A stretch of 64,000 nucleotides of DNA from Chloroflexota bacterium (lineage in GTDB: Bacteria; Chloroflexota; Dehalococcoidia; JACQUO01): NCBI GenBank assembly GCA_016210205.1, contig JACQUO010000023.1, positions 67,788 to 131,787 of the forward strand, written 5' to 3'. The first letter of the stretch is position 1, and every line of letters begins with the position of its first letter. A program made the translations under genes and the position numbers. Positions 7,610 through 42,801 of this stretch are shown here, piece by piece. The notes under the pieces were generated by a model. The model did not search any database, had not been told where the DNA came from, and saw only the letters and a list, made by a program, of their open reading frames with translations.

Positions 7610-8956
7610 ATGAATCAACCATCCGTCCAGAAGACCACCGCCATCAAGGCCACGGAGACCGCCCGGGAAGTGCGCAAGATGCTCAAGGCCCGCTACGAAC
7701 GGGCCAATGAGGCGAAACGGACCGGGGAGCAGAAAGTTGCCTGGTTCATGCTGGGCACCAACACCGCCATCCCCGTGGCCATGGATGTGATTCTCCTGGG
7801 GACCGAGAACTACGCCGGCCTCTGCGCCGCCAAGAAGGTGGAGCAGAACTTCATCGGCAAGGCCGAGGCCGCCGGCTTCTCCAACCTCTGCTGCGGCTAC
7901 TCCCGCACCGTTCTCGGCTACTGCCAGGAGCGCAGCGAGCTGGGGATGCCCCCCGACTATGCCCCCGACGGCGGCCTGGCCTGGCCCGACCTCCTCTTCA
8001 CCTGCGCCGCCATCTGCGACCCCCGCTTCAAATGGTATCAGGCCATGGCCAAGCTGACAGGGGCGCCCCTTTCCATCTACGACGCCCACACCCCAGCCCT
8101 CACCATGAAGCTCACCGAGGATGTCAAGGAGCGCTATATCCGATACGGCGTGGACCAGCTCCGCACCGCCGTGGCGTTCCTGGAGAAGCACTGCGGCCGC
8201 AAGATGGACTGGAACAAGCTCACCCAGGTCATCGAGCTGGAAGAGGAGACCAACCGGGTGTCCTGGCAGATGTATAAGCTGCGGCGGGCCGTACCGGGCC
8301 CGGTGCCCACCCAGGACATGATGTCGTCCTTCGTGCCTCGAAGCTTCCTGGCCGGAGAGCCCTCCACCCTGGACTTCTACATCCGCCTTCGGGATGAGGC
8401 CCAGGAGCGGGTGGATAAGAAAATCGGCGTAGTGCCCCAGGAGAAGTTCCGCCTCATGTGGGCCGGCGGCCTCCCCCCGTGGCATAACATGGGCATCTAC
8501 AACTACTTCGAGAGCCTGGGAGCCGTCTCCGTCTTCGAGACCACTTACAACCAGGGCGCCCCCAGCGAGCTGGACCACCCGGAGCACTATCACCCCCTGG
8601 AGCGCATGGTGCGCCGCCAGTATGCCGGCCTGGAGGAGGATAGGACCAGGGCCTTCGGACCCGGCGGCAGCGGCTACCCCCAGGTTGAGGACATCAAGGA
8701 ATACATCCGGGACTACAAGATTGACGGCTTGGTGATGCACCAGGTGAAGTCATGCCGCCCCACCTCCGTGGGCCAGGCCATGAACCGAGACCTCATCAGG
8801 AAATTCTCCCCGGTGCCGGTGCTCTCCTTGGAGAGCGACATCGTCGACGCCCGGGACTACTCCGAGGCGGACACCCGGGCCCGCATCGACTCCTTCGTGG
8901 AGACCCTGGATGCGGTGAAGAGCGGCCGCCGCTCCGCCGAGGCTGCCGCCTCGTAA
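7610..8956 (+). CDS. 2-hydroxyacyl-CoA dehydratase / benzoyl-CoA reductase-like subunit (copy 1)
   Basis: 448 residues of the HgdB/FldB/BcrB-type family (2-hydroxyglutaryl-CoA dehydratase D component). Members hold a [4Fe-4S] cluster and use one-electron chemistry to dehydrate 2-hydroxyacyl-CoA or reduce benzoyl-CoA, with a partner subunit and an ATPase activator. Visible hallmarks: paired cysteines in SNLCCGYSRTVLGYC, CDPRFKWYQ, the MWAGGLPPWHNMGIYNYFE block, KSCRPTS, and the C-terminal VLSLESDIVDARDYSEADTRARIDSF. A near-full-length paralogue is at 34390. Neither a clear partner subunit nor the activator ATPase is in the window. Transcribed alone between its own promoter and a strong terminator. 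The substrate cannot be told from sequence. Confidence 0.85.
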   Translation: MNQPSVQKTTAIKATETAREVRKMLKARYERANEAKRTGEQKVAWFMLGTNTAIPVAMDVILLGTENYAGLCAAKKVEQNFIGKAEAAGFSNLCCGYSRTVLGYCQERSELGMPPDYAPDGGLAWPDLLFTCAAICDPRFKWYQAMAKLTGAPLSIYDAHTPALTMKLTEDVKERYIRYGVDQLRTAVAFLEKHCGRKMDWNKLTQVIELEEETNRVSWQMYKLRRAVPGPVPTQDMMSSFVPRSFLAGEPSTLDFYIRLRDEAQERVDKKIGVVPQEKFRLMWAGGLPPWHNMGIYNYFESLGAVSVFETTYNQGAPSELDHPEHYHPLERMVRRQYAGLEEDRTRAFGPGGSGYPQVEDIKEYIRDYKIDGLVMHQVKSCRPTSVGQAMNRDLIRKFSPVPVLSLESDIVDARDYSEADTRARIDSFVETLDAVKSGRRSAEAAAS

Positions 8957-19203: not shown

Positions 19204-19222
19204 CTTTCCCCCAAAAGCAGGG

Positions 19223-19432
19223 TCAGCGTCTAAGAGAAGGCGGGCGGCGCGGCGCCTCCATACCCCAGTCGGCGAAGACCCAGGTGAGGAGGAAGGCCGC
19301 CCCAGTAAAGACGAGGGTGAAGTAGCCGAAGAGCCAGAAAGCTTCTAGCCCAAAAAACCATACCATGGACCAGAGGATTGCTCCCGGCATCACCAAAGCT
19401 AGGATTAGGCGCGTCTTGCGGGAGAGCTTCAC
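19223..19432 (-). CDS. 69-residue two-helix membrane protein
   Basis: Begins at GTG 19432 after an AAGGAGG site. Two hydrophobic helices (about 9-27 and 32-52), each ending in aromatic residues, and a basic Arg/Pro tail. No family recognised. It lies 44 bases downstream of the SPFH gene on the same strand and just before a strong terminator, so it belongs to the operon of the molybdoenzyme and may be an accessory membrane subunit. Confidence 0.65.
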   Translation of the reverse strand: MKLSRKTRLILALVMPGAILWSMVWFFGLEAFWLFGYFTLVFTGAAFLLTWVFADWGMEAPRRPPSLRR

Positions 19433-19476
19433 AGGCCCCTCCTTAAGGTCTTGCTAGGGCTCAGCCTAGGGACAGC

Positions 19477-20274: not shown

Positions 20275-20310
20275 CTTTCTTAACCCCCTTTACGAACTTT
20301 ACGCATTCCT

Positions 20311-22427: not shown

Positions 22428-22453
22428 GGCAGTCCTTTCTGTCCCAGGGCCCC

Positions 22454-26147: not shown

Positions 26148-28952
26148 TTGACGGGTCTTTTTACTGCCATCGGCTTACAAAGGCGCATCCTCTTCCTGGT
26201 GGGGCTGGCCCTTCTGGTAGTGCTGGCCGTTTTCGCTTTTCTCGGCTTGCAGGCGGTGGACCAGGCCTTCCAGCTTGTCTTCAGCCAGCACTCCGCTCAA
26301 GCCCAGGGCGTGGCCGCCAGCCTGGACCGGGAGGTGAGCCAATCCCTTCTGGATTTGAGCACCTTGGCAGCCTCGGGGCAAATAGACCCGGGGGACGGCG
26401 AGCTGGCGCGAGAGGCTGGAGCCCTGACAGATTTCTATGGGCTCTGGGCCCACGAGGATCGGGGCCAGCTCGCTCTGGTGGTCCTGGTGGACGAACGAGG
26501 GCTCCCCCTGGCATGGGAACCCCACCACCTCCCCCAACCCGCCTCTTTCCAGGGTCCCGAGCTTCAGAGGGCTTTGAGTTCAGGCCATCTGGTGGTAGAG
26601 GATTTACCGACCTCCCTAACAGGGCCACTGCTGATGGCGGCGGCCCCCGTCTTCGACCGAGCAGGGCACGTGGAGGCGGCCCTGGTGATGGAGTTTACCC
26701 CTAAGGTGGCCTTTGCAGAGAAGGCCCTGAGCCCTGACTACCGCATGGAGATAGTAAATAGCCAGGGGGAAATCATCCTGGCGGCGGACGCTCGTTATCC
26801 CCCGGGGGTCCTCACGGAGCACAGTGCGGTGGCCATGCCCTTCATAGACGCTCGGAGCCCGGGGGCTGCCATTCATCATATGGCCTCTGCTGACTCTAGC
26901 TATAAAGACCACGTCGTGGCCTACGCTACCCTTGACACGCTACCCTGGGGCGTGGTGCTGGAATTTCCCCATGGCGAGGCCCTGGCCATCCCTTATCAGC
27001 TTAGGGACCGTTTCATCGCTCTCGGCTTCCTGGCCCTCCTGAGTGCCCTGGGCCTGGCCTGGATCACCAGCCGCAACGTGGTCAAGCCCATCAAGGCCCT
27101 GACCCAGGCCGCAGAGCACATAGCCGCCGGGGACCTGGACCACCCTGTCGACGTGAAGGCCCAGGATGAGGTGGCCATCTTGGCCCGGGCCTTGGAGGAC
27201 ATGCGCTCCAGGCTCAAAGGCTCCCTGGCGGAAAACGAGGCCTGGGGACGGGCTCTAGAGGACAGGGTGCACCAGCGCACCAAGGAACTCCTGGCCCTCC
27301 ATCAGGCCTCCCAGGAGCTGGCTTCTACCCTGGACCGGGAGACCCTCCTCCGTATCATCACTGCCCGAGGGAGGGACCTCTTCCCCCTGGCCCAGGCAGG
27401 GGCCATCTACCTTTCCCCGGCCCAGGGGCAACCCCTGCGGGCTGAGGCTTCCTTCGGCTTTCTCTCAGAGCGCCTGGGAAAGGTCGCCCTGAGGCCCGAG
27501 GAGGACTGCGCTGGGCAGGCTTTCGACACTCACCAACCCCAGGTCTGGGACCGCCGGCCCCTACCGGCCCCCTTGCGGGCCTGTCTTACTCCGGAAAATC
27601 GGGCTCTGGCCCAGGATGGGGATGAGACTTCCCTGGCCGTGCCTCTCCTCCATAAAAGCCAGGCCCTGGGGAGTTTGGCCCTCTACGCCTTCCGACCCGT
27701 CCAGCATTTCACCCCAGCCGATGGCCAGCTGCTCCAATCTCTGGCCAACCAGGCAGCCATCTCCCTGGCTAATGCCCAACTCTTCCAAGAGGCCAGCCAG
27801 GTAGGCTCCCTCCAGGAGCTCAATCACCTCAAGAGCGAGCTAGTGGCCCGAGCCTCCCACGAGTTGCGGACGCCCCTCACATCCATCAAAAGCCTGGCGG
27901 AGACTCTGTTGCGCCAGGACCTGGCTCTGAGCTCCCAGGAGCAACGAGAATTCCTGGAGGCCATCGACATCGCCGCGGACCGCCTGGCCCGGATAATCAC
28001 CGACCTGCTCACGGTGTCCCGCATCGAGGCTGGCCGTCTGGAAATCCGCCGCCAGCCCCTGGACCTGGAGAGCCTGGGGCAAAAGGTGATCCGGCAGTTT
28101 CAGTCCCCCCAGCCGGAGCGTTCCTTTGCCCTGGCCATCCCCGCCCATTTGCCCCCGGCCCTGGGAGACCCCGACCGCCTGGAGGACGTGCTCACCAACC
28201 TTCTCTCCAACGCCGTAAAGTATTCCCCCAAGAAAAGCCTCATCATGCTTCGGGTGATTGAGGAGCAGGGAGAGCTGGTGGTATCCGTCATCGACCAAGG
28301 CCCCGGCATTCCTCTCCAGGAGCAGGATAAGCTCTTCCAACGGTTCAGCCGCATTGGGGGCCAAGGTGGGGTGGGTGGGGTGGGGTTGGGCCTCTATATC
28401 AGCAAATCCTATGTGGAGGCCATGGGGGGTAGGATTTGGGCCGAGAGCGCCCCGGGGCAGGGTTCCACCTTCAGCTTCACCCTGGCTGTGGCGCCGGCCG
28501 ACCAGGCCACGAGCGGTGCCCTGGTCGGCTCCAAGACCGCCCCCTCGCCCCCCCCCACCAGACCAGGCGGTTCAGTGCTGGTGGTGGACGACGAACCAGA
28601 CGTCCTCCGGGTCGCGGGGGTAAACCTGAAGGCCCAAGGCTTCCAACCCTTGCTGGCCAGCACCGCCCGAGAGGCTCTGGAGCTAGCCCGTCGCCGCCGT
28701 CCCGATGCCATTGTCCTGGATATCGTCCTCCCTGACCGGGACGGGTTTGAGGTGACGCGCATCCTCAAGCGCCGGGTCAGCACCCGCCACATCCCCATCA
28801 TCTTCCTCTCGGCCAAAGCCCAGGAGCAGGACGAGGAGCAGGCCCGACAGGCGGGAGGGGTAGCCTTCCTCAAGAAGCCTTTCTCCCCCCGGGAGCTCTG
28901 TGACGTCGTGGCCGCTGCCATCAGGGGCAGTGAGGTGAGAGCAACCCCCTGA
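26148..28952 (+). CDS. hybrid sensor histidine kinase (membrane sensor-HAMP-GAF-HisKA-HATPase-receiver)
   Basis: 934 residues from TTG 26148. Membrane segment (about 10-32), a large extracytoplasmic sensor of Cache type (about 40-285), second membrane segment (about 286-305), HAMP (about 306-360), GAF (about 395-550), HisKA with phospho-acceptor His571 (ASHELRTPLTSIKSL), HATPase_c (DRLEDVLTNLLSNAVKYSP, DQGPGIP), and a C-terminal receiver (about 813-925) with VVDDEPD, VLDIVLPDRDG and the KKPF lysine. A phosphorelay is implied. The OmpR-type regulator 105 bases downstream is the obvious partner. The initiation codon is uncertain; ATG is absent near the N terminus. Confidence 0.88.
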   Translation: MTGLFTAIGLQRRILFLVGLALLVVLAVFAFLGLQAVDQAFQLVFSQHSAQAQGVAASLDREVSQSLLDLSTLAASGQIDPGDGELAREAGALTDFYGLWAHEDRGQLALVVLVDERGLPLAWEPHHLPQPASFQGPELQRALSSGHLVVEDLPTSLTGPLLMAAAPVFDRAGHVEAALVMEFTPKVAFAEKALSPDYRMEIVNSQGEIILAADARYPPGVLTEHSAVAMPFIDARSPGAAIHHMASADSSYKDHVVAYATLDTLPWGVVLEFPHGEALAIPYQLRDRFIALGFLALLSALGLAWITSRNVVKPIKALTQAAEHIAAGDLDHPVDVKAQDEVAILARALEDMRSRLKGSLAENEAWGRALEDRVHQRTKELLALHQASQELASTLDRETLLRIITARGRDLFPLAQAGAIYLSPAQGQPLRAEASFGFLSERLGKVALRPEEDCAGQAFDTHQPQVWDRRPLPAPLRACLTPENRALAQDGDETSLAVPLLHKSQALGSLALYAFRPVQHFTPADGQLLQSLANQAAISLANAQLFQEASQVGSLQELNHLKSELVARASHELRTPLTSIKSLAETLLRQDLALSSQEQREFLEAIDIAADRLARIITDLLTVSRIEAGRLEIRRQPLDLESLGQKVIRQFQSPQPERSFALAIPAHLPPALGDPDRLEDVLTNLLSNAVKYSPKKSLIMLRVIEEQGELVVSVIDQGPGIPLQEQDKLFQRFSRIGGQGGVGGVGLGLYISKSYVEAMGGRIWAESAPGQGSTFSFTLAVAPADQATSGALVGSKTAPSPPPTRPGGSVLVVDDEPDVLRVAGVNLKAQGFQPLLASTAREALELARRRRPDAIVLDIVLPDRDGFEVTRILKRRVSTRHIPIIFLSAKAQEQDEEQARQAGGVAFLKKPFSPRELCDVVAAAIRGSEVRATP

Positions 28953-29057
28953 GTCGCGTCCCCTGTTAGGGGTTTCGTAAGGTAAAAACATTATATTTCT
29001 CACCAGTAGCATTGAGCAAGGACGGAGGAGAATTACCATAAGGGGTCAGGGGGAAAT

Positions 29058-29771
29058 ATGATACTGGTGCGGTTTCCGACTCTCCTGGTGGTGGACGATG
29101 ACCCCACTATCATCCGCTCCTTGCAGATGAATTTGGAGGCTGACGGCTTTCGCACCATGGCTGCGGCCACCGCTCAAGAGGCCTTGACCCAGGTGGAGCA
29201 CCAACTCCCGGACATGGCTATCGTGGACCTCATCCTCCCCGACATGCATGGGTTCGAGCTCAGCAAGAAGCTCAAGGAATACGTGGATATCCCCATCATC
29301 ATGCTCACCGCCGTGAGCAGCGAGGAGAGCATCGTCCGGGGCCTAGAGCTCTACGCCGAAGACTACATCGTCAAGCCTTTCAGCTACCGAGAGCTCCTAG
29401 CGCGAGTTCAGCGAGTCCTGCGGCGCACCAGAAACCAAGCCGTGCCCCCCGAGACAGTAACAGTGGTAGACCCCCGCCTGTCCCTGGACTTCGCCCGCCA
29501 TCGGGTGCTTCGGGACAGACAGGAAATCCACCTCACCCCCATCGAAAGCCGGCTCCTGGCAGCCCTAGCCCGCAACCTCAACCGTACAGTGACTAGCGGG
29601 CGTCTCATGGATGAGGCCTGGCCCGATGGCGAGGGGGACGTGGGCCGCCTCTGGGTCAACATCCGCCGGCTGCGCACCAAGCTCGAAGATGACCCCGACC
29701 ACCCCCAACGCCTCCTCACCCAGCGGGGCGGCGGCTATAAGCTCCGCTCCCAGGATGACCCTCCCGGCTAA
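29058..29771 (+). CDS. OmpR-family response regulator
   Basis: 237 residues: receiver with LLVVDDDP, acceptor Asp57 (MAIVDLILPDMHG) and the VKPFSYRELLARV lysine, and an OmpR-type winged helix (LTPIESRLLAALARN, LWVNIRRLRTKLEDD, GGGYKL). Both domains look functional. Placed just after the hybrid kinase on the same strand. Possible targets are the divergent molybdoenzyme operon or the CoA-transferase cluster downstream, whose leader is unusually long. Confidence 0.92.
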   Translation: MILVRFPTLLVVDDDPTIIRSLQMNLEADGFRTMAAATAQEALTQVEHQLPDMAIVDLILPDMHGFELSKKLKEYVDIPIIMLTAVSSEESIVRGLELYAEDYIVKPFSYRELLARVQRVLRRTRNQAVPPETVTVVDPRLSLDFARHRVLRDRQEIHLTPIESRLLAALARNLNRTVTSGRLMDEAWPDGEGDVGRLWVNIRRLRTKLEDDPDHPQRLLTQRGGGYKLRSQDDPPG

Positions 29772-30282: not shown

Positions 30283-31662
30283 ATGGCGACTCAAGCGGAA
30301 GTCAAGTGGGCGCTGAAGCGGCCCCGGTTCTTTCCCGGCTACTTGCAGGCGTTTCTCGGCGCCCTGAACGGATTCATCGGTTATGGGGCCTACATGTATT
30401 CCTGGAGCGCCCTCGTCTCGGGCATCCTGCGGGCGGAGGCGAAGACGGTCACCCGGGGGGATATCGCCTTTGGCGCCGCCCTGGGGCGGTTGGAGGGGGG
30501 CCTGGAGGCGGCCCCGGCGGGCTATATGATTGACTCCTGGGGCCCCAAATACATGTCCACCCTGGGGTTCATCGTCGCTGGCATCGGGTATATCCTGTTG
30601 GGCCTGTGGCTGGTGAAGGCGGGGTGGTGGATATGGCTCTGCTATGGATTCCTCATCCAGCTCTCCATGAACTGGGCCCTTTATACCTGCAGCAACAAAA
30701 TCATCGCCTGGTACTTCATCAAGCGGCGGGGCATGTGGATGGCCCTGCACACCATGGGGGCGGCCTTCGGGGGCATGATTATGACCCCCCTGGCTGCGGC
30801 CGTCATCACCGCCACCAGTTGGAACACGGCGGCCATCGCCACCGGGGTGTTCTGCTTCCTGGGCGCGGTCGTCGCCTTCATAGGCTACCGCAACCGGCCG
30901 CCCCAGGCCTACGGGCTCCTGCCCGACAACGACAAGCTCCCCCATGAGCGCACCAAGGAGGAGTTGGAGGCGGCCAAGGCCAAGGGCGCCACCAAGGTGA
31001 TGACCGCGGACGACTTCCTGCCCGACATGACCATCTGGGACGGCGTGAAGACCCGGGCCTTCTGGGCCCTGGCCTGGCAGGGGGCCTTCGCCGGGCTTTA
31101 TGCCTTCACCTTTCCCACCTTCTTGACCGACCACTTTCGTAGCCTGGGGTTCAGCCTCCAGGAGTCGGCCAACTACATGGCCCTCTACTTCCCCATGACC
31201 CTGCTGGGGCGGCTCGCCGTGGCGGGCCTCTCGGACCGGTTCAACCCCCAGATATTCTCCGCCCTGGCTTCCTTCGGGATAGGGGTAGGAATCCTCTTCA
31301 CCGCCTATGCCACCAAAGAGCGGGCCTGGATGCTCCTGGCCTATGCGCCGTTGTATGGCATCCCCATGGGGATGTCCCCGGCCGTGGGCCAGCACCTGTC
31401 CACCACCTGGTTCGGGCGCAAATGGATGATAACCATCCCCGGGCTGCGGAGCCTGGTGGACACCCCCCTTGTATTCCTCGGGACCCTAGCGGTAGGCCTC
31501 ATCGCCGATGCCTCCGGGGGCTCCTATGTGACGGCCTTTACCTGGCTGGGAATAAGCACCTCCATCGGGGGGATTGGGCTATGGGTTATCGGTAAGCAGC
31601 CCAAGGTCATAGCGGAGGCCCGGCGCAAGGCCCGGGAGTTCGGCATCCACATGCAAGGCTAA
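30283..31662 (+). CDS. MFS transporter (oxalate/formate-antiporter-like)
   Basis: 459 residues with twelve predicted membrane segments in two halves. The pattern fits the OFA/monocarboxylate group of the major facilitator superfamily (FIGYGAYMYSWSALVSGIL at the start, then KFxxRRGMW-like FIKRRGMWMALHTMGAAFGG between halves). Members carry oxalate, formate or other carboxylates. The good AAAGGAGG site fixes ATG 30283. Followed by three CoA-transferases and a 2-hydroxyacyl-CoA-dehydratase-like gene, so its cargo is probably the organic acid that the cluster activates to a CoA ester. Confidence 0.85.
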   Translation: MATQAEVKWALKRPRFFPGYLQAFLGALNGFIGYGAYMYSWSALVSGILRAEAKTVTRGDIAFGAALGRLEGGLEAAPAGYMIDSWGPKYMSTLGFIVAGIGYILLGLWLVKAGWWIWLCYGFLIQLSMNWALYTCSNKIIAWYFIKRRGMWMALHTMGAAFGGMIMTPLAAAVITATSWNTAAIATGVFCFLGAVVAFIGYRNRPPQAYGLLPDNDKLPHERTKEELEAAKAKGATKVMTADDFLPDMTIWDGVKTRAFWALAWQGAFAGLYAFTFPTFLTDHFRSLGFSLQESANYMALYFPMTLLGRLAVAGLSDRFNPQIFSALASFGIGVGILFTAYATKERAWMLLAYAPLYGIPMGMSPAVGQHLSTTWFGRKWMITIPGLRSLVDTPLVFLGTLAVGLIADASGGSYVTAFTWLGISTSIGGIGLWVIGKQPKVIAEARRKAREFGIHMQG

Positions 31663-31670
31663 AAAAGCCG

Positions 31671-31699
31671 CAGGGGGGCGGCGGCAAGCCGCCCCCCTG
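31671..31699 (+). terminator. GC-rich hairpin after the MFS gene (weak or partial terminator)
   Basis: A perfect 12-bp stem (31671-31682 with 31688-31699, CAGGGGGGCGGC type) has a 5-base loop. No T-run follows on the plus strand, though AAAAAA precedes it, so on the minus strand it would be a proper terminator. On the plus strand it may reduce read-through or stabilise the upstream transcript. Confidence 0.5.
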
Positions 31700-31742
31700 T
31701 CCTCGGCTAAAGAGTTCCGCCATCAATGGTGGGGAGGTGGGC

Positions 31743-32978
31743 ATGGTGGACCAGGGGATTCTCTCCGGCCTCAAGGTCATCGACCTCAGCCAAGTCATCG
31801 CGGGGCCTTATGCCACCAAGCTCCTAGCGGACTATGGCGCCGCTGTCATCAAGGTGGAAAACCCCGCCGCGGGCGACCCGGCCCGGCGGATGGGACCCTT
31901 TCAGGGCGACGACCCCCACCCCGAAAAAAGCGGCCTCTTCCTGCATCTGAACACCAACAAACGGGGGGTTACTCTCAATCTGAAGACCCAGCTGGGCCGA
32001 AAAATACTCCTGGAGCTGGTCAGGTCGACGGACCTTTTGCTAGAGTCCTATCGCCCTGGCGCCATGGAGTCCTTCGGCCTGGGCTATGAGACCTTGCAGG
32101 AGGTCAACCCCCAGTTGGTGGTAGTCTCCGTCTCCAACTTCGGCCAGACCGGCCCCTACCGGGACTACAAGGCCACGGAGATAGTCCTTTACGCCATGGG
32201 GGGCGAGATGCATGCCTGCGGCATCCCGGGACGGGAGCCTGTCAAGCTCTTCGGGGATGTGGGCCAGTTCCACGCCGGCCTGGTGACTGCGGGCTATGCC
32301 ATGGGGGGAATCTTCGCCAAAGACCTTCAGGGCATCGGCCAGCACATCGACATCTCCCTCTTCGAGGTGTGGGCCTCCAGCCAGGACCGGCGCAGCACCA
32401 GCATCTTGGGGGCTCAGTATGCCCCTGGGGAGCCACGCCACCCCACGGACCCTGGGGGCCGGGGGTATCCCCCCGCAGGCTGGTATCCCACCCAAGACGG
32501 GCTCCTGAAGAGCGGCGTATCGTGGAACCACATTCAGGCCGCAGTGAACTTCTTCGATAACCCGGGCTGGCCCCATCCCTGGATGCGGGACCCCAAGTGG
32601 GTGGACCAGGCCAGCACAGGCAACGAGGAGATGCGCCAGCAATTGGATGAGCTCCTCTACCCCTGGATGGCCGAGCGCACCATGATAGAGGCCTGGCGGG
32701 ACACCCAGAAGTATCGGCTGCCCACCTCGCCTTATTACACCATGGCGGATCTCCTCAAGGACCCCCATTTCGCCGAGGCACGGAAGTGCTTCATCGAGGT
32801 GGACCACCCCGTGGCGGGCAAGGTCACCCAGCCGGCGCCGCCTTATCGCTTCGAGGGCGTGGGTTATAAGATGCGTCGCCCTGCCCCCTTGTTAGGGCAA
32901 CATAACCAGGAGGTCTACGGAGAGTTGGGGTATAGCAAAGAGGACCTGGTGATACTGCGTGGATTGGGAGTAATATAG
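31743..32978 (+). CDS. CaiB/BaiF family III CoA-transferase (1)
   Basis: 411 residues from ATG 31743, preceded by GGGGAGG; a GTG six bases earlier is less well placed. Family III transferases move CoA between carboxylates through an aspartyl-CoA intermediate. Motifs: VIDLSQVIAGPYATKLLADYGAAVIKVENP, NTNKRGVTLNLKT, and the catalytic Asp172 in LFGDVGQ. The next gene starts at the base after its stop codon. Related genes lie at 32979 and 35871. Substrate unknown; likely the acid imported by the MFS protein. Confidence 0.9.
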   Translation: MVDQGILSGLKVIDLSQVIAGPYATKLLADYGAAVIKVENPAAGDPARRMGPFQGDDPHPEKSGLFLHLNTNKRGVTLNLKTQLGRKILLELVRSTDLLLESYRPGAMESFGLGYETLQEVNPQLVVVSVSNFGQTGPYRDYKATEIVLYAMGGEMHACGIPGREPVKLFGDVGQFHAGLVTAGYAMGGIFAKDLQGIGQHIDISLFEVWASSQDRRSTSILGAQYAPGEPRHPTDPGGRGYPPAGWYPTQDGLLKSGVSWNHIQAAVNFFDNPGWPHPWMRDPKWVDQASTGNEEMRQQLDELLYPWMAERTMIEAWRDTQKYRLPTSPYYTMADLLKDPHFAEARKCFIEVDHPVAGKVTQPAPPYRFEGVGYKMRRPAPLLGQHNQEVYGELGYSKEDLVILRGLGVI

Positions 32979-34343
32979 ATGGGGAATGAGCGGAAGATGG
33001 CCAAACTGCCCCTGGAGGGGATAAGGATAGCCGACCTCACGGGCGTCTGGGCGGGCACCGTGGCCATGCTTCATCTGGCGGATATGGGGGCCGAGGTCAT
33101 CCGGGTGGAGTCCACTCAGACCTGGCAGACCTTCACCCGTGGCAGCTTCGCTCGGCCCAGGAAAGAGGTGGTGGCCCGGGGGGACATCGGGAACATGTGT
33201 TATGTCAATCGGGACCCTGGACCCCGTCCCTGGAACCGCTGGGCCTTTCACAATAGCCATGCCCGCAACAAGCTGGGCATGACGGTGGACCTTCGTAAGC
33301 CCGAGGGTATGGAGGTCCTCAAACGCCTGGTAAAGGTCTCCGATGTGGTGGCGGAGAACTCCCAGGCCGAGGTGATGGAGAAGCTGGGAATCACCTATGA
33401 GATGCTTAAAGAGGTAAACCCAGAGATTATCTACATGCGCATGCCCGGCTACGGAACCTGGGGGCCTTACAAAGAATACCGGGCCTACGGGGCCAACTTG
33501 GAAGACGCCATTGGCCATTCTTCCCTGCGGGGCTACCCCGACCTGTCCCCTTCTGAGCGCACCCCTACCGTCCTCTTCTCCGATGGGGCCGGCGTGGCCG
33601 GAGCCTTCGTGGTGTTGGCTGCCCTCTATTACCGCAAGCATACCGGCAAAGGCATCTATGTGGAGGCTGCCCAGGCGGAGAATGTCATCCCCTGCCTGGG
33701 CCAGGCCATCATGGATTACACTATGAACGAACGGGTGCTCGATACTGTAGGAAACCGCCATACCACGGCTATCCAGGGGTGCTACCCAGCCCGGCGGGCC
33801 CTCAGCGAGGTGGCCCCCGGGGCCAAGCCGGACCGGGCGGACTTACACCAGAATTGGGTAGTCCTCACCATTTCCAACGATGCTGAATGGCTTGGCCTGG
33901 TACGGGCCATGGACAATCCAGGGTGGGCCGAAGGCCCCAAGTTCGTCGACCAGATGAGCCGTCGCCAACACCATGACGAGATAGACGAGGGCATCAGCGC
34001 GTGGAGCAGCCAGCATCACGATTATGAGATTTTCCACCGACTCCAAAGGGAAGGAGTCCCCGCCGGCCCCGTCTTAAGCGGCTGGGCCATCAGCAACGAC
34101 CAGCACATGCGGGCCCGCGGCTTCTTCAAGGAGATACATCAAGAGGAATGCGGCACCCATCGCTATCCGGGGTGGTCGGCCCAGTTCTCGGAGACCCCCA
34201 TCAGGGTGCGCTATCCCCCGGTGCGCTTAGGGGAACACAACGAGTATGTATATAAAGAGCTCCTGGGCTATTCCGACGAGGACTATAAAGAGATGGAGCG
34301 TCTGGGCCACATCGGAATGGACTTTGCCCCGCACATCCGCTAA
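32979..34343 (+). CDS. CaiB/BaiF family III CoA-transferase (2)
   Basis: 454 residues, longer than its neighbours, with IRIADLTGVWAGTVAMLHLADMGAEVIRVES, NKLGMTVDLRKPEGMEVLKRLV and the probable catalytic Asp202 (LFSDGAG). It abuts the first CoA-transferase with no gap, so the two may form a heteromeric enzyme, as some benzylsuccinate-type family III transferases do (BbsE/BbsF). That comparison is only by architecture. The dehydratase-like gene follows 46 bases on. Confidence 0.9.
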   Translation: MGNERKMAKLPLEGIRIADLTGVWAGTVAMLHLADMGAEVIRVESTQTWQTFTRGSFARPRKEVVARGDIGNMCYVNRDPGPRPWNRWAFHNSHARNKLGMTVDLRKPEGMEVLKRLVKVSDVVAENSQAEVMEKLGITYEMLKEVNPEIIYMRMPGYGTWGPYKEYRAYGANLEDAIGHSSLRGYPDLSPSERTPTVLFSDGAGVAGAFVVLAALYYRKHTGKGIYVEAAQAENVIPCLGQAIMDYTMNERVLDTVGNRHTTAIQGCYPARRALSEVAPGAKPDRADLHQNWVVLTISNDAEWLGLVRAMDNPGWAEGPKFVDQMSRRQHHDEIDEGISAWSSQHHDYEIFHRLQREGVPAGPVLSGWAISNDQHMRARGFFKEIHQEECGTHRYPGWSAQFSETPIRVRYPPVRLGEHNEYVYKELLGYSDEDYKEMERLGHIGMDFAPHIR

Positions 34344-34389
34344 CGTTGACGAGCAGGTAACGCAACTAGATTGGAGAGGGTAAGCAGCT

Positions 34390-35739
34390 ATGGAACAGCC
34401 ATCGGTACAGAAAACCACGGCGGTGAAGGCCACCGAGACGGCCCGCGAGGTTCGCAAGATGCTCAAGGCCTGGTATGAAAAGGCCCATGAGTACAAGAGG
34501 ACCGGGGAGCGCCAGGTCACCTGGTCAATGATGGGGACCAACTACAATCTCCTGGTGGCTATGGATGTGATGACCCTGTGGACGGAGAACTACGCCAGCC
34601 TGGCCGCCTCGAAAAAGGTGGAAGGCCCCTTCATCGCCAAAGCCGAGTCGGCCGGCTTCTCCAACCTCTGCTGCGGCTACTCCCGGACGGTCCTGGGCTA
34701 CTGCATCGCCCACGAGGAGCTGGGGATACCCCCGGATTTCTCCCCCGATGGCGGCCTGGCCCTTCCGGACTTCCTGGTCACCTCCACGGGCACCTGCGAC
34801 CCCCGCTTCAAGTGGTATCAGGCCATGGGGAAATACCTGAAAGTGCCCCTCTTTGCCTATGACCGCATCAATTCACCTCCTTTGAGCATGAAGCTCACCC
34901 CTGACCTGAAGGAGCGCTACATCCAGTACGGGACAGCCCAGTTCTGGGGCCTGGTGGAGTTCCTGGAGCAGCAATGCGGCCATAAGATGGACTGGGATAA
35001 GTTCAGGGAGGTTGACCGCCTGGACATGGAGACCTGGCGCATGGCCTGGCAGACCTACGAGCTGCGCAAGGCGGTGCCCGGGCCGGTGCCCACCCAAGAC
35101 ATGATGTCCTCCTTCGTCCCGCGGGTCTTCATGCCTTCTGAGCCCGCTACCCTGGACTTCTACACCCGTCTCCGAGACGAGACCAAAGAGCGCGTGAATA
35201 AGAAACAAGGGGTTATCCCCAACGAGAAGTTCCGCGTCATGTGGGCCGGCGGCCTGCCCCCCTGGCATAACATGGGCATCTACAACTACTTCGAGAGCCT
35301 GGGGGCCGTCGCTGTCTTCGAAACCACATACAACCCCGGGGAGCCCACCGAGCTGGAAAACGAGGAACGCTACCACCCCATCGAGCTCTTTCAGCGGCGG
35401 CTGTATGCGGGGATTGAACAGGACTGGGCCAAGGCCTTCGGCCCCGGCGGCAGCGGCTATCCCCAGATTGAGACCCTTAAAGACTATATCCGGGACTACA
35501 AAATCGACGGCCTGGTGATGCACGCCACCAAGTCCTGCCGCGCCACCTCCATCGGGCAGACCATGAACCGTGACCTAATACGGAAGTTCTCCCCGGTCCC
35601 CGTGCTCTTCTTGGAGAGCGATATCATCGACGCCCGGGACTACTCCGAGGCGGACACCCGCGCCCGCATCGACGCCTTCGTGGAGACCCTGGACGCTATA
35701 AAGTCCGGCCGCCGCCGCGCCGAGGCAGCCGCCTCGTAG
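34390..35739 (+). CDS. 2-hydroxyacyl-CoA dehydratase / benzoyl-CoA reductase-like subunit (copy 2)
   Basis: 449 residues, alignable end to end with the copy at 7610 and sharing its unusual N terminus (QPSVQKTTA and KATETAREVRKMLKA) and C terminus (AEAAAS). Cysteine motifs SNLCCGYSRTVLGYC, CDPRFKWYQ and KSCRAT are retained. The middle section (about 155-215) and residues near 330-350 differ most, suggesting different substrates or partners. Located inside the CoA-transferase operon, unlike copy 1. The two copies might pair with each other as a heterodimer, since no other partner subunit is in the window; this is speculation. Confidence 0.86.
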   Translation: MEQPSVQKTTAVKATETAREVRKMLKAWYEKAHEYKRTGERQVTWSMMGTNYNLLVAMDVMTLWTENYASLAASKKVEGPFIAKAESAGFSNLCCGYSRTVLGYCIAHEELGIPPDFSPDGGLALPDFLVTSTGTCDPRFKWYQAMGKYLKVPLFAYDRINSPPLSMKLTPDLKERYIQYGTAQFWGLVEFLEQQCGHKMDWDKFREVDRLDMETWRMAWQTYELRKAVPGPVPTQDMMSSFVPRVFMPSEPATLDFYTRLRDETKERVNKKQGVIPNEKFRVMWAGGLPPWHNMGIYNYFESLGAVAVFETTYNPGEPTELENEERYHPIELFQRRLYAGIEQDWAKAFGPGGSGYPQIETLKDYIRDYKIDGLVMHATKSCRATSIGQTMNRDLIRKFSPVPVLFLESDIIDARDYSEADTRARIDAFVETLDAIKSGRRRAEAAAS

Positions 35740-35870
35740 ACGTAAAGCCCCTAGCAGCTTCAGCCATCAGGGAAGATGGAATTATCTTCCCGGATGGAGC
35801 CTGGCCGGATGGAGCCTGGATTGAAGAAATAGCCCCTTGCCTGGGGCCAAGAGGGAAAAGGAGCACGCCC

Positions 35871-37076
35871 ATGGGGCCGCTGGAGGGGATTAGGGTTATC
35901 GATTGGACCTTTTTCCAGCAAGGGCCGGTGGCGTCCGCCATGCTGGGCGACCTGGGGGCCGATGTCATCAAGCTGGAAGACCCGGTAAACGGCGACCCCG
36001 GCCGAACTTTGGGTCGGGTCGGGGGGCAGGACACCGGGTTGCCCGGGGGTCGGAACTACTATTTTGAGGATAAGAACCGCAATAAAAGAGGCCTCACCCT
36101 GGACTTGAAGAAGCCCCACGGGAGGGAGGTGCTCTATAAGCTGGTAAAAACCAGCGATGTCCTGGTGCAAAACCTGAGGCTAGGGGTGGCGGAGAAGCTG
36201 GGGGCGGACTACCAGACTCTGTGTCGCCATAACCCCCGGCTCATCTATGCCCACGCCACCGGCTACGGCCGCGAAGGCCCCGATGCCAGGGAATCCTCCT
36301 CAGACTATGCGGGCATCGCCCGGACCGGCTTCATGACCATGGTGGGAGAGGATGGGGCCGACCCACCCCCCTTCTCGGCGGGGATTTGCGACCAAATTGG
36401 GGCCATCATGCTGGCTTACGGCGTCCTGGGTGCCCTTTTCGTCCGGGAACGAACCGGCCAGGGGCAGGAGGTGGACTGCTCCCTCCTGGGGGCCATGATG
36501 CAGCTCCAAGCCAACGCCCTGGCCTCGCATCTCTTCGGCCGAGCCCAGCCCCGGGCTCCCCGCACTAGGGCTCGGAACCAGCTCTGGAACCACTACAAAT
36601 GCGGCGATGGCCGCTGGCTGGCCGTATCCTGCCTCCAGCCCGACCGCTACTGGTCTCCCTTCTGCCGAGCGCTTGGCATCTCTTCCCTGGAGCATGACCC
36701 CAAATACGCCGACCGCCTGGCCCGGGACCAGAACGCCGCCGAGCTCATCGCCATTATCGACCCCATTTTCCTCCGCCGGCCCCGGGACGAGTGGCTGCGC
36801 CTCCTTAAGGGGCAGGATATTCCGTGCAGCCCCGTGAACCGCCTTTCCGACCTGGCGAGTGACCCTCAATATGTGGCCAACCACTATATCGTCGACTTCG
36901 ACCATCCAGCCCTGGGCAAAATTAAGGTGCCCGGCATACCCGTGGAGTTCAGCCAGACGCCTGGGGGAATAAGGAGGCCGGCACCTGAGTTCGGGGAGCA
37001 CACCGAAGAGATTCTCCTGGAGCTGGGCTATACCTGGGACGACCTCGCCCACTTCAGGACAGAAGGAATCATCTAA
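35871..37076 (+). CDS. CaiB/BaiF family III CoA-transferase (3)
   Basis: 401 residues: IRVIDWTFFQQGPVASAMLGDLGADVIKLEDP, NKRGLTLDLKKPHGREVLYKLV, and catalytic Asp174 in GICDQIGA. ATG 35871 follows AAAAGGAGC. A 131-base gap separates it from the dehydratase-like gene; the gap contains a tandem of CCGGATGGAGCCTGG-like words (35790-35820) but no gene. Last gene of the plus-strand cluster, converging on the radical SAM gene. Confidence 0.9.
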   Translation: MGPLEGIRVIDWTFFQQGPVASAMLGDLGADVIKLEDPVNGDPGRTLGRVGGQDTGLPGGRNYYFEDKNRNKRGLTLDLKKPHGREVLYKLVKTSDVLVQNLRLGVAEKLGADYQTLCRHNPRLIYAHATGYGREGPDARESSSDYAGIARTGFMTMVGEDGADPPPFSAGICDQIGAIMLAYGVLGALFVRERTGQGQEVDCSLLGAMMQLQANALASHLFGRAQPRAPRTRARNQLWNHYKCGDGRWLAVSCLQPDRYWSPFCRALGISSLEHDPKYADRLARDQNAAELIAIIDPIFLRRPRDEWLRLLKGQDIPCSPVNRLSDLASDPQYVANHYIVDFDHPALGKIKVPGIPVEFSQTPGGIRRPAPEFGEHTEEILLELGYTWDDLAHFRTEGII

Positions 37077-37144: not shown

Positions 37145-38353
37145 TCAGCGGCGTCGCCGCCAGGGGAAGGGGCCGCTACCCATGGCCTGGCGCACTTGGG
37201 CCATGACCTCCGGGGTAATGCGGGAATGCCCCTGGGCCCGAGCGTGTCCCTCGACGGCCTGCCGGACCCGGCCTCGGATGAAGGCTGGGATGCCCTCCAG
37301 CCGCCGCAGGGCCGCCTCCTCCCACTCCACCCCAATCTCAGCCCGAGGAGCCTCGTTGCCCCCCGGCTCATGGAGGCACCAGGGGTCCTCCCCTAAGGGG
37401 TCGCCGGTGAGCCCGTAGGCCCGGCCCCGGCAGCCTCCGCAGGCCACCCGATACTCGCAGCGGCCACACCGGCCCCCCAACTCACCGGCCCGCAGCCGGC
37501 TCAGCAGGGGCGACTCCTCCCAAATGGCCTTAAGAGGCCGCTCCCGGATGTTGCCCAAAGCCAGAGGCAAGTAGGGACAGGGGGTCACCCCCCCCTCCGG
37601 GGTGATGCGGCAATAGCCCGTCCCCGCCGGGCAACCCGCGCTGCCCACCAGGGCCGAGTCCCGCTCCTGGGCCACCCGGTGGATATGGGGGGCGCAGCGG
37701 GCGCGCACCAGCAGGTCGGGGCAGCGCTGCTGGGCGTGGGTCAGCAGCGCCAGGGCCTCCTCATACTGCTGGGGGGTGATGTCCGTGAGGGCCTCGCCCC
37801 GCCCGGTGCAGACCAGGAAATACAGGGTGAAGCCAGCGGCCCCCTGGCGGTGGGCGAAGTCCACCAGGGAGGGTATCTCATGGTAGTTCTCGGGTGTGGC
37901 GGTGGCCTGAACGAGGCAGGGCAGTCCCTCCTCACGGCAGAGGGCCATGGCCCGCACCGCCCCCTCCCAGGCCCCTTCCACCCCGCGAAAGGCGTCGTGG
38001 ACGGCCGGGGCACAGGAATCCAGGCTGATGCCGACACCCTTGACGCCGCACTCCCCCAGGCGTCGCACCGCTGCTCCATCCAGCAGGGTACCGTTGGTCC
38101 CCAGAACCACAGCCAGCCCCCGCTCAGTGGCGCACTGGGCTACATCGAATAGGCCGGGGTAAAGCAAAGGCTCCCCCCCGGTGAGGATGAGCATCTCGGT
38201 CCCCAGGGCCGCCATCTGGTCCACCAGCCCCCGGGCCTCCTGGGGAGACAACTCGGAGGGGCCGCCTGCGCCGGCCTCCAGGTAGCAGTGGGCGCAGCGC
38301 AGGTTGCAGCGACGCGTCAAATTCCAGGAGATCAGGTGAGGCCGGTGCGCCAT
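37145..38353 (-). CDS. radical SAM/SPASM enzyme with C-terminal PCP_red-like domain
   Basis: 402 residues. Radical SAM cluster motif CNLRCAHC near residue 16, GGEPLLYP, then a SPASM-type cysteine region (CPAGTGYCRITPEGGVTPCPY and CGRCEYRVACGGCRGRAYG) binding auxiliary Fe-S clusters. The last 55 residues (WEEAALRRLEGIPAFIRGRV and ARAQGHSRITPEVMAQVRQAMG) match the small PCP_red domain first seen at the end of protochlorophyllide reductase BchB. The core resembles NirJ/AhbC/AhbD-type haem-modifying enzymes. It closes the oxidoreductase cluster, 35 bases after the universal stress gene; a role in maturing a haem or cofactor of that complex is inferred. Confidence 0.85.
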   Translation of the reverse strand: MAHRPHLISWNLTRRCNLRCAHCYLEAGAGGPSELSPQEARGLVDQMAALGTEMLILTGGEPLLYPGLFDVAQCATERGLAVVLGTNGTLLDGAAVRRLGECGVKGVGISLDSCAPAVHDAFRGVEGAWEGAVRAMALCREEGLPCLVQATATPENYHEIPSLVDFAHRQGAAGFTLYFLVCTGRGEALTDITPQQYEEALALLTHAQQRCPDLLVRARCAPHIHRVAQERDSALVGSAGCPAGTGYCRITPEGGVTPCPYLPLALGNIRERPLKAIWEESPLLSRLRAGELGGRCGRCEYRVACGGCRGRAYGLTGDPLGEDPWCLHEPGGNEAPRAEIGVEWEEAALRRLEGIPAFIRGRVRQAVEGHARAQGHSRITPEVMAQVRQAMGSGPFPWRRRR

Positions 38354-38388
38354 AGGGGCTTCCCCCTTGAGGCTAGGAGTGTGCCCTG

Positions 38389-39414
38389 TCAGGTGGCGAG
38401 GTGAGTTTTGACTGCGCCGTCTCTGGGGGCGCCCACGGCCAAGAGGTTGCAGGGGGCCAGGCGGGCCAGGTTCTCCACCACGCTCCCACCACCCCCGTAG
38501 CGGTCCCGGTGGGCTCCGGTGCGTCCCACCACCAGGGCGAAGGTGGGCCGCTCCGTCACATAGCGCAGCAGCTCAACAAAGGGCTTCCCTGTCAGCAGCG
38601 TCGTGGTCTCAAGCTCTACCCCCAAGCGAATGGCTTGGGCCCGGGCCCGCTCCAGGTGGCGGCCATAGACCTGGGCCAGCCCCCGGTCAATTATTTCGTT
38701 GTGAAGCTGCTCCTGCTCCTGGAAGCGAAACCTCTGGGCCGCCTCCGCCGAGAGCACCTGGGTGATGCCCCTGAAGGCAACGCGGTGATAGTCGGGGTCA
38801 TAGACCGCCACCGCCTCTACTGGAATATCCAGCGCCCGACCCAAGGCCAGGGCTTGCTCCAGGGCATGATAGGAGGCAACGCTGCCGTCTATCCCCACCA
38901 CGATGCGGCCCCCCTGGGGGCTGGCCCCCTCCCGGGCCACCAGCACATCCACCGGGGAGCGGCGCAGCACCCGCTCACAGACACTCCCTATCAGGCTCTC
39001 GGGCACCGCCCCCAGGCCCAGGGCCCCTAGGGCCACCAGGCCGTAGCCATTCCGTCCCAACTCGCGCAGAATCTCCACATAGTTGCGGCCCTCAGCCAGC
39101 TTGCGCTGGCAGGACACCTCCCGCTCCCAACACTCCTCCTCGAACCAGTCCAAATAGGAGTCAGCGATGAGCCGCAGCCCGTCCCGAATGAGGCCCCCAT
39201 GGATGCCCCGCTGGCGCTGGAGCGTCGAAGCGTCCTGGAACCGGGGGGGCAGAAAGGCCTCCAGCTGGCGGAAGCGGCCCCTGTGAAGGCGGGCGGCATA
39301 GACATTCATCCCCACCAAGGTGGAGCCCAGCCGCGACCCAATCGTGATGGCAGCCCGAGCCGCCGCCCGGCTGTGAAGCGAATTGTCTATGGGAACTAGA
39401 ATGTGCTCATACAT
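38389..39414 (-). CDS. tandem universal stress protein (UspA-like)
   Basis: 341 residues with two Usp domains: residues 1-155 (MYEHILVPIDNSLHSRAA, VALGALGLGAVPESLIGSV) and about 165-335 (GRIVVGIDGSVASYHAL, LVVGRTGAHRDR). The second domain keeps the G-2x-G-9x-G-like ATP loop better than the first (GSVCERVLRRSPVDVLV in the first also fits). Forms the same minus-strand run as the oxidoreductase genes, 47 bases after the gamma subunit. Usp proteins often accompany respiratory gene clusters; the exact role is unknown. Confidence 0.88.
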   Translation of the reverse strand: MYEHILVPIDNSLHSRAAARAAITIGSRLGSTLVGMNVYAARLHRGRFRQLEAFLPPRFQDASTLQRQRGIHGGLIRDGLRLIADSYLDWFEEECWEREVSCQRKLAEGRNYVEILRELGRNGYGLVALGALGLGAVPESLIGSVCERVLRRSPVDVLVAREGASPQGGRIVVGIDGSVASYHALEQALALGRALDIPVEAVAVYDPDYHRVAFRGITQVLSAEAAQRFRFQEQEQLHNEIIDRGLAQVYGRHLERARAQAIRLGVELETTTLLTGKPFVELLRYVTERPTFALVVGRTGAHRDRYGGGGSVVENLARLAPCNLLAVGAPRDGAVKTHLAT

Positions 39415-39461
39415 TTTACGGGCCCTACCTTTCCCGCCTCTCTAGGGGAGTCGCTTTGGTG

Positions 39462-40493
39462 CTAGGTGCTGACTTGGTCGGTTTGCCTGGCCCTTCTCCG
39501 CAGCAGACCCAGTCCAATGACCTGTATGGCGGCGGCGCCAATCACCGCCAGGACGGGGCTGATGTAGGCCAGAGGCCCGAGCGGCTGTTCCAAACTTAAG
39601 AAGTACCAAGTGGAGACGGCCTTCTCCCCACCCCGCTCTTGTCTGGCCCCATCCCAGGCGGCAAAGGCCACCGGGAAGGTCTTGCCTCTCTCGAACACAA
39701 AGCCCTCTTGGCTTTTGGGGAATGAAATCACGGTCCTCCAGGCGCCGTCTTTCCAAACTCCCTTGCCCGTTCCATTCTGCTGGTCAACCCCCGCCGAGGT
39801 GAGGGTCCCGAACCCTTCCGCCGTCAGCTTTTCCACAGGTGTCTTAGCTTGAAGGACAGGATTGCCCAAGGGGCTGCCAGCCCACCAGGAAGGGAGAAAG
39901 GCCCGGTCTCCGCCCTCTTTACCATAGTCCGTTGCCTCTGCCATCTCTCCAGCGGCACGGCCGGAGAAGGGATACAGGTCCCACGCCATGTTGGGAAACT
40001 CTTCATTGACATCGTAAAGGGGCGCGAACTGCCAGTCGGCCTTCCATTGGTAGATGGTGACCGGTTTATTCGATTCCCCCATGCCGAAGTAGGGGATGCC
40101 CTTGCTCGGGTCGCCGGGGAACTCCACGGCGATGGCATCACGGAAGGAACCCACCCTCCCGATGCTCACCTCGCGCTTGGCGTCGCCCCACTCCAACAAG
40201 AAGGCGAGCTTTGTCTCATCATAGAGGGCACGGGCGGTGAGGGCCTTGACCCCGGCCTCGTAGGTGCGCGGCTTCACCACCGCCTGGGGCGCCAGGGGCA
40301 CGTCCAAACTGTCCGAACTCGCCCAGAGGGAGTCCTCTGGGTCCTCCGGCACCCGGGTCACCGGCCGGGCGAGGAGGGTCGCTTTTTGAGCGGCGGCAGC
40401 CCTCTCCGCCGGCGAGAGCAGCCATCCGAAGAGGCCGGCTGTGGCGGCCACCAGAATGGAGCGCCGGTTCACAATGGTCTTAGGGACATTCAT
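39462..40493 (-). CDS. haem-b-binding gamma subunit of the nitrite oxidoreductase/nitrate-reductase-like complex
   Basis: 343 residues from ATG 40493, chosen for its GAGGTGG site; a longer frame to 40625 would overlap the chaperone gene. An N-terminal signal (NRRSILVAATAGLFGWLL) is followed by the ethylbenzene-dehydrogenase-type gamma domain (ALYDETKLAFLLEWGDAK is a hallmark) and a single C-terminal membrane helix (about 302-325). This domain in EBDH, chlorate and perchlorate reductases and periplasmic Nxr binds haem b and passes electrons to cytochrome c. The C-terminal helix would fix the complex to the outer face of the membrane. Confidence 0.85.
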   Translation of the reverse strand: MNVPKTIVNRRSILVAATAGLFGWLLSPAERAAAAQKATLLARPVTRVPEDPEDSLWASSDSLDVPLAPQAVVKPRTYEAGVKALTARALYDETKLAFLLEWGDAKREVSIGRVGSFRDAIAVEFPGDPSKGIPYFGMGESNKPVTIYQWKADWQFAPLYDVNEEFPNMAWDLYPFSGRAAGEMAEATDYGKEGGDRAFLPSWWAGSPLGNPVLQAKTPVEKLTAEGFGTLTSAGVDQQNGTGKGVWKDGAWRTVISFPKSQEGFVFERGKTFPVAFAAWDGARQERGGEKAVSTWYFLSLEQPLGPLAYISPVLAVIGAAAIQVIGLGLLRRRARQTDQVST

Positions 40494-40503
40494 GGCTACC
40501 ACC

Positions 40504-41244
40504 TCATTCCTGAGCCGAGGCTGCCGCCAGGCAATCCTCGCAGCCGGAGGCCTCTTCTTCGGGCGGCTCAACAGGGGCCAGCCCGACCACCTTTCGGGGC
40601 TCAAGCCCGAAAGCGACAAGCTCAAACGCCAAAAATGCGGTTAGAAGCTGACCTAGGAGCGCGTATATACTGTCTCCGGATTTCTTCTCCAGCCTTTGGG
40701 CAAACCCAAAAGCCCACTGGCCCAGGTGCTCCTCCAGAAACTTGGCCTGGGCCTGGCGGCACAGGGCCAGTTGCTCCTCTCCATGGCTTTGGGCCAAGGC
40801 GTAGGCCTCCTTGAGGGACAAGAACTGCATGAATTCCAGCTCCACACTCAAGTGGTCCAGGCGCTCATTAAGATTGGAGGCAAGCTCCAGCCCGAAAGCT
40901 CGGTAGAAGCCGGCGATATCGGCCAGGGCATTGGACTGCTGAAAAATGTGGGCCAGGTCATACTCCGCCTCATAGGGTGGGCAATCCTTGGAGATGGTAT
41001 GCCCGAAGCACTGTAGATGCGACCTTTCCATATCGGTGATGCTCTGGGCGTCCAGGGCCGGGGCCAAAACCCTGACGGCTGCCAGGCCCTCAGGGACTTG
41101 CAGCTCGGACAGGCTGGCCTCGACTTGGCCCAATTGCTGCTTTATCTGGGAGAGGACGGAGGATTCCGGCTGCCCGAATCCCAGAGCCAGAAGCTGATAA
41201 ACCTGGCTCCGCGCCAGGGGTTTGCAACCACAGGTGTCACACAT
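40504..41244 (-). CDS. TorD/NarJ-family molybdoenzyme chaperone
   Basis: 246 residues, all-helical. Family pattern: an N-terminal helical bundle, ERSHLQCFGHTISKDCPPYEAEYD near residue 93-116 (the E-x3-Y/P-PYE signature), and AGFYRAFGLELA. Unusual extras are an N-terminal CDTCGC and a C-terminal CEDC, which could bind metal. TorD/NarJ proteins insert the molybdenum cofactor and hold the catalytic subunit until Tat export; here the client is the 1183-residue subunit. Ten bases upstream of the gamma gene. Confidence 0.88.
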   Translation of the reverse strand: MCDTCGCKPLARSQVYQLLALGFGQPESSVLSQIKQQLGQVEASLSELQVPEGLAAVRVLAPALDAQSITDMERSHLQCFGHTISKDCPPYEAEYDLAHIFQQSNALADIAGFYRAFGLELASNLNERLDHLSVELEFMQFLSLKEAYALAQSHGEEQLALCRQAQAKFLEEHLGQWAFGFAQRLEKKSGDSIYALLGQLLTAFLAFELVAFGLEPRKVVGLAPVEPPEEEASGCEDCLAAASAQE

Positions 41245-41259
41245 AGCCAGAAAACCCCT

Positions 41260-42534: not shown

Positions 42535-42799
42535 GGGCTTTACCCCCTAGAATGCGGCCCTGGCTCCATTGGCTGCGGACCGCTTGAATCAACGACCGCA
42601 CAAATTCTTCCCCCTTGCTCTGGTAGATGCTATGGGTGGAGCGGAAGCAGGGGTTGAGGAAGAGAGACAAGAGCTCCCCATCGCTCCAACCCAGCAGCAG
42701 GTATTCCTCCACCAGGCATAGGGCCATGGCTTCCATGCAACCTTGGGGCAGAGCTACCCCCACCAACACCATCGGGTCCTCTGGTGAGCTGCCTGCCAT
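42527..42799 (-). CDS. 90-residue protein of unknown function encoded between the alpha and beta subunit genes
   Basis: Starts at ATG 42799, two bases after the alpha-subunit stop, with AAGGAG just upstream inside the alpha gene; ends by overlapping the beta gene by eight bases. Sequence highlights: LPQGCMEAMALCLVEEYLLLGWSDGELLSLFLNP and STHSIYQSKGEEFVRSLI. It has two or three cysteines, a helical pattern and no signal or membrane helix, so it is probably cytoplasmic. Tight coupling to both subunits suggests an assembly or regulatory factor. I cannot name the family. Confidence 0.75.
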   Translation of the reverse strand: MAGSSPEDPMVLVGVALPQGCMEAMALCLVEEYLLLGWSDGELLSLFLNPCFRSTHSIYQSKGEEFVRSLIQAVRSQWSQGRILGGKAHA

Positions 42800-42801
42800 A
42801 C

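Follow-up and report, generated by a model that had tools for sequence, protein, structure and literature searches.

What does a single active-site subunit of an ATP-driven Fe-S enzyme do next to a carboxylate carrier and three CoA-transferases, and where are the proteins it works with? The five genes in question lie in the window, i.e. the whole 64,000-nucleotide stretch of DNA that we analysed, which is part of contig C19 of a MAG of 1.42 Mb (G000; 34 contigs, 87.5% complete). The class of the MAG is probably Dehalococcoidia, since G099, a genome of that same class, has an O protein identical to the one at L045, which is on record as Dehalococcoidia. An earlier note on this DNA had described the five genes as a cluster that may serve uptake, CoA activation and radical dehydration or reduction of an aromatic or hydroxy acid. 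The protein families, the logic of uptake and CoA activation and the idea of a radical dehydration or reduction hold. The Fe-S subunit, O1, is very probably functional, its partners being encoded at other places in the genome, and it belongs to an unstudied branch of its family that, judged by related operons, probably handles 2-hydroxy acids rather than benzoate.

The five genes form a compact operon on one strand. All open reading frames were found where they had been described, with strong Pfam matches (Table 1). The gaps between MFS, CT_A, CT_B, O1 and CT_C are 74, 0, 46 and 131 bp, respectively, the start of CT_B being the base right after the stop of CT_A. The gene following CT_C (37145-38353) lies on the opposite strand. 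Around the operon we counted 2 promoter-like sites compared to 2.0 in shuffled sequences, i.e. no excess; terminator-like sites were mostly on the other strand and gave no operon-specific signal, and a search for structured RNA found none. Repeats within the cluster are all diverged copies, and several pair one of the homologous transferase genes with another. On the same strand and 5' of the MFS gene, a hybrid histidine kinase (GAF/HAMP) and an OmpR-type regulator are encoded at 26148-29771, and it is possible that they regulate the operon.

Table 1. Genes of the operon and its counterparts in the same genome. Positions refer to the window except for N, which lies on contig C1.
Gene	Product	Position	Strand	Pfam match, E
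MFS	Carboxylate-type transporter, 459 aa	30283..31662	+	MFS_1, 1.3e-23
CT_A	BbsE-like CoA-transferase subunit	31737..32978	+	CoA_transf_3, 2e-92
CT_B	BbsF-like, presumed catalytic subunit	32979..34343	+	CoA_transf_3, 2.9e-83
O1	Active-site [4Fe-4S] subunit, BCR/HAD family	34390..35739	+	HGD-D, 1.1e-52
CT_C	Family III CoA-transferase, type flanking N/O genes in relatives	35871..37076	+	CoA_transf_3, 3.2e-114
O2	Second O-subunit paralogue	7610..8956	+	HGD-D, 1.2e-55
N	N subunit	C1:35019-36167		HGD-D

The HGD-D fold and three cluster cysteines place O1 in the BCR/HAD radical enzyme family (PF06050). Cys95, Cys136 and Cys383 as well as Glu66 are invariant in 23 aligned sequences. For the AlphaFold2 model (pLDDT 88.9) the best Foldseek matches were BzdO, HadB and MbdO, with TM-scores near 0.8. 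We then asked how O1 relates to these enzymes. In a maximum likelihood tree of O proteins, O1 and its paralogues O2 and O3 group together (100/100) inside a clade of 76 rows (support 100/99), which stands apart from BzdO with relatives of the same class (100/100), from MbdO with its relatives and from HadB; the tree was built without Hgd, Fld, Lcd and Bcr sequences, and long branches, e.g. that of HadB, are unsurely placed. Proteins of the same class that resemble BzdO or MbdO fall into separate clades. O1 also scores far below the curated NCBIfam cut-offs for BzdO, HadB and BcrB: the BzdO model gave 140.9 bits (143.1 for O2) where 448.6 are needed and the HadB model 121 bits where 750 are needed. 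On tree and cut-offs together we rejected true orthology of O1 with BzdO or MbdO.

The roles of the BzdO active-site residues are described in PMC11971306. O1 and BzdO share 24% identity in the structural alignment, and the catalytic Glu65 is kept as Glu66 of O1. The position of His131 is taken by Arg139, an arginine that 90% or more of the clade members in the alignment have as well, and the ring pocket also differs, the positions of Ser44, Trp46, Gln274 and Leu383 all being replaced in the clade. The fold is likewise close to HadB, but the position of HadB Ser37 is a Met in O1. The missing His alone does not exclude a reductase because MbdO, which is a reductase, is also without it.

For the five-gene cluster it is correct, as the earlier note had stated, that the partner subunit and the ATPase activator are missing; for the genome it is not, since N is encoded on contig C1 and two activator ATPases, P and Q, on contig C32. 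There are five HGD-D genes in the MAG: O1, O2, N, an O fragment on C32 and an unrelated gene on C14. After N, the last bases of C1 encode codons 1-62 of a third O (O3); C32 starts with the 249 C-terminal codons of an O, and P and Q come next. We infer that N, O3, P and Q make up one operon in which the assembly broke within O3, the likeness of this gene to O1 and O2 being the most likely cause; ∼140 codons from the middle of the gene are absent from the two pieces. The genome thus holds three O, one N of this type and one P/Q pair. O1 and O2 are 73% identical (all three O proteins mutually 73-80%), with dN 0.19 and dS 0.65, and purifying selection acts on the paralogues at dS of about 0.5-0.9. 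O2 stands alone, with no CoA-transferase beside it. A third activator ATPase is found on C24 (L113, 9501-12604), at a locus separate from the N-O-P-Q set, together with two proteins of ∼330-370 aa that resemble CoA-activase/HgdB relatives. The C14 gene (L007, 8741-9790) encodes a lone HGD-D protein of 349 aa with no NCBIfam match.

In the radical enzymes of this family the second subunit differs between the known types. BzdN carries a Cys-ligated [8Fe-9S] double cubane, as does DCCP, while the second subunits of HAD enzymes keep a smaller cluster remnant (PMC11971306). N has Cys at all six positions common to BzdN and DCCP (C40, 78, 105, 270, 299 and 335), the ligands having been assigned from the shared pattern rather than from a structure file and with partial reference chains. 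The six are also kept in 42 relatives of N (41 at one position), whereas HadC is without two of them and MbdN without three. Because all six are present, N is predicted to bind a double cubane. Judged by this pattern, the double-cubane Cys set of the BZD type is present, and the HadC pattern of a beta subunit without a double cubane is not what N shows. The other BZD-type trait, separate P and Q activators, is found on C32, with the link to C1 resting on the presumed operon. DCCP has the same six cysteines but is made of two identical chains that both hold a double cubane, whereas N would pair with an O that has only three Cys.

The published scheme sorts the family into BZD-type reductases with a double cubane and dehydratases without one; in HAD enzymes, which have no double cubane in the beta subunit, a single electron is used catalytically. 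With a double cubane predicted in N and with P and Q as separate genes, the N-P-Q hardware resembles a BZD-type reductase. Compared to BzdNOPQ, the class I BZD-type benzoyl-CoA reductase of Aromatoleum, we also see the same N-O-P-Q order, three Cys and a Glu in O, and the best PDB matches by sequence. Unlike that system, however, the operon contains CoA-transferases, and the genome lacks the ring hydrolase Oah: the best hit in a search of the MAG, which is 87.5% complete, reached 70 bits compared to a cut-off of 464. For this and for the changed active-site residues we rejected benzoate degradation, and since the His of BzdO is replaced by Arg and no ring-cleavage hydrolase was found in that search, benzoate is unlikely to be the substrate.

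Curated models do not class the three CoA-transferases as ordinary formyl-CoA or carnitine enzymes, a reading that we rejected: they reach at most 239 bits for formyl-CoA (cut-off 442) and at most 144 for carnitine (cut-off 413), all far below the thresholds. CT_A falls in the BbsE clade (SH-aLRT 99) and its best PDB match is BbsE (9fn0_A, 166.9 bits), though by a narrow lead; CT_B falls in the BbsF clade and matches BbsF best (9fn0_B, 173 bits; next 123.5). CT_A has Gln at the position of the catalytic Asp, just as the E-type subunit of BbsEF, the succinyl-CoA:(R)-benzylsuccinate CoA-transferase, is without this residue. In CT_B the Asp lies one place off the catalytic position in the automatic alignment owing to an alignment gap. 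By their sequences, the two abutting genes are a BbsEF-type heterodimer pair. The likeness ends with the setting: this genome has about twelve such pairs. CT_C groups with the CT_C genes that adjoin N or O in other genomes (support 100). Among NCBIfam models the MFS carrier resembles those for L-lactate, oxalate/formate and monocarboxylate carriers, but weakly and in no case up to the cut-off.

Family III CoA-transferases are abundant in this 1.42-Mb MAG, with 28 genes on C6, C9, C11, C12, C17, C18, C19, C21 and C23. Among those that we read there were 12 of type A, 11 of type B and 3 of type C, most of them arranged as neighbouring A/B pairs. Another MFS-CT_A-CT_B cassette is located at C18:26263-30202 (L171, 6263-10202), with a thiolase-like gene upstream and without an O gene. 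Compared to the cassette in the window the carrier is 71% and the transferases are 50% identical.

Further clues to the substrate come from a survey of the gene neighbourhoods at 52 named loci and in genomes of the same class. The usual order is N-O-P-Q, and in most of the Chloroflexota loci CT_C adjoins N or O. An O that has no N next to it is seen outside the window as well: some genomes carry N and O at two different loci, with a CT_C next to each (L044 with L107 and L045 with L108). The link between an A/B pair and N-O-P-Q is not unique either, since L053 has both in the order P-Q-CT_A-CT_B-N-O. VorABC and/or a D-2-hydroxyacid dehydrogenase accompany CT_C and N/O at L044, L045, L069, L203-L206 (four copies within one genome) and L210, and GlcD/GlcF follow Q at L073, L079, L081 and L084. 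In the Syntrophaceae relatives acyl-CoA ligases or an MFS carrier are nearby. A 2-oxoacid oxidoreductase, a D-2-hydroxyacid dehydrogenase, a CoA-transferase and a dehydratase together are the set of the Had/Fld kind of 2-oxoacid/2-hydroxyacid metabolism, and the related operons resemble HadABCI/FldABCI of Clostridia in having such an oxidoreductase and dehydrogenase, a family III CoA-transferase, dehydratase subunits and an acyl-CoA dehydrogenase. They differ in the double-cubane Cys pattern of N, which is incomplete in HadC, and in having two activator genes. Because the related operons couple VorABC, D-2-hydroxyacid dehydrogenase, CT_C, N and O, the substrate may be a 2-hydroxyacyl-CoA and the role of O1 dehydratase-like, a reading by analogy that we consider about as apt to be right as wrong. 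Against it, the function is carried over from relatives that are ∼36-48% identical, and beside O1 itself there are CoA-transferases but no 2-hydroxyacid enzymes. Of the two substrates named earlier, the hydroxy acid is thus favoured by VorABC, D-2-hydroxyacid dehydrogenase and GlcDF in relatives and a benzoate-like aromatic acid is disfavoured by the His to Arg change and the lack of an Oah. The hardware points to a BZD-type reductase and the neighbours to a HAD pathway: the two signals pull apart. In the genomes of L044, L045 and L046 (G060-G062, Chloroflexota MAGs) we encountered 22-23 N-type HGD-D paralogues each.

Our preferred reading, to which we give an even chance, is that the operon imports a carboxylic acid, activates it on CoA and feeds it to O1 as part of a two-component ATP-driven Fe-S enzyme. 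The MFS carrier would import the acid, and CT_A/CT_B, whose placement is firmer than their presumed substrates, would load CoA from succinyl-CoA or another donor. Like HadA/FldA of amino-acid fermentation, CT_C may swap CoA between the product and the incoming acid, a role suggested by its constant linkage to N/O. O1 would dock with N from C1, and P and Q from C32 would push ferredoxin electrons at the cost of ATP into the predicted double cubane of N and then to the [4Fe-4S] cluster of O1; here the cluster ligands come from the alignment and the electron path is modelled on BzdNO. The last step would most likely strip the hydroxyl from a 2-hydroxyacyl-CoA, by radical elimination or reductively, as the related operons suggest. 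Probably the single N-P-Q core serves all of O1, O2 and O3, and each of these would have an acyl pocket to itself; we hold such sharing to be somewhat likelier than not. It would be special to this lineage because other multi-O genomes give each O its own N: those checked closely (G139, G117 and G183) never have fewer N than O, with 4 O and 6 N in G139, so that one shared N gains no support as a rule for the clade as a whole. A further N could also be missing from the MAG. The most far-reaching version, in which one core serves interchangeable O subunits each tuned to another acyl-CoA, O1 has its own importer and CoA-transferases, and BZD-type hardware dehydrates or reductively dehydroxylates a 2-hydroxyacyl-CoA, is speculative and in this combined form rather doubtful.

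The main alternative is that O1 and N-P-Q form an ATP-dependent reductase of aryl-CoA or another acyl-CoA with class I Birch chemistry, acting on a non-benzoate aromatic acid that is loaded by the CoA-transferases. The architecture of N, P and Q fits this and so do the nearest sequence matches (BzdO for O1 and BzdN for N). Known BbsEF-type transferases include some that act on aromatic acids, and VorABC could merely supply reduced ferredoxin. The exchanged His131 and ring-pocket positions in the clade speak against it, as does the genome without an Oah above the cut-off. Furthermore, the D-2-hydroxyacid dehydrogenase and GlcDF of the relatives do not fit a benzoyl-CoA pathway, and the class has BzdO-like and MbdO-like proteins in clades of their own. 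We therefore regard a reductase of this kind as rather unlikely.

The earlier note had also reasoned that a normal partner pair elsewhere would make O1 a redundant paralogue. Partners do exist, and to that extent the reasoning applies, yet several points set O1 apart from a plain redundant copy, namely its place in an uncharacterised clade, purifying selection and the linkage to CT_C. A lineage-specific duplicate of O3 without a distinct role, stranded by a cassette for transport and CoA transfer, would account for the 73-80% identity of the three O proteins within one clade, the cassette found without an O and the solitary O2. It would not explain why selection has been purifying at such dS values, why the catalytic residues are kept and why O1 lies beside the very transferase that accompanies N/O across the class, and we consider it improbable. 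Least probable are five unrelated neighbours, i.e. ordinary CoA-transferases for fatty or organic acids next to an unrelated Fe-S protein. With 28 family III genes in the genome a chance adjacency is easier than usual, but the compact operon on one strand, the conservation of CT_C beside N/O in many genomes and the link of a CT_A/CT_B pair to N-O-P-Q at L053 all argue against it.

Class I Bzd-type reductases have been published for marine Chloroflexi within complete benzoate pathways (PMC5736913). In the open-licence papers searched we found no description of the O1 clade with Vor/hydroxyacid operons. Its members come from Dehalococcoidia and Desulfobacterota (Syntrophaceae) MAGs, e.g. from groundwater and oxygen-minimum waters, so the substrate bears on anaerobic carbon turnover there. 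The BCR/HAD family carries out some of the lowest-potential electron transfers in biology. A double-cubane N in 2-hydroxyacid operons would break the rule that separates reductases from dehydratases and could show one chemistry turning into the other, and with three active-site subunits to one core subunit, whether catalytic subunits are exchangeable can be tested directly.

Two further loci in the window encode molybdoenzymes, both on the minus strand. Adjoining the five-gene cluster (37145-46353) is an operon of the type II DMSO-reductase family with a Mo catalytic subunit of 1183 aa, an Fe-S subunit, a chaperone and a heme-b (EB_dh) subunit; the same segment also encodes a Usp protein and a PCP_red-containing radical SAM protein, and all of these score below the curated NCBIfam cut-offs. 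At 10275-24871 we observed a second EB_dh-like protein, NrfD membrane subunits, an Fe-S subunit and an ArrA/PhsA-like molybdoenzyme.
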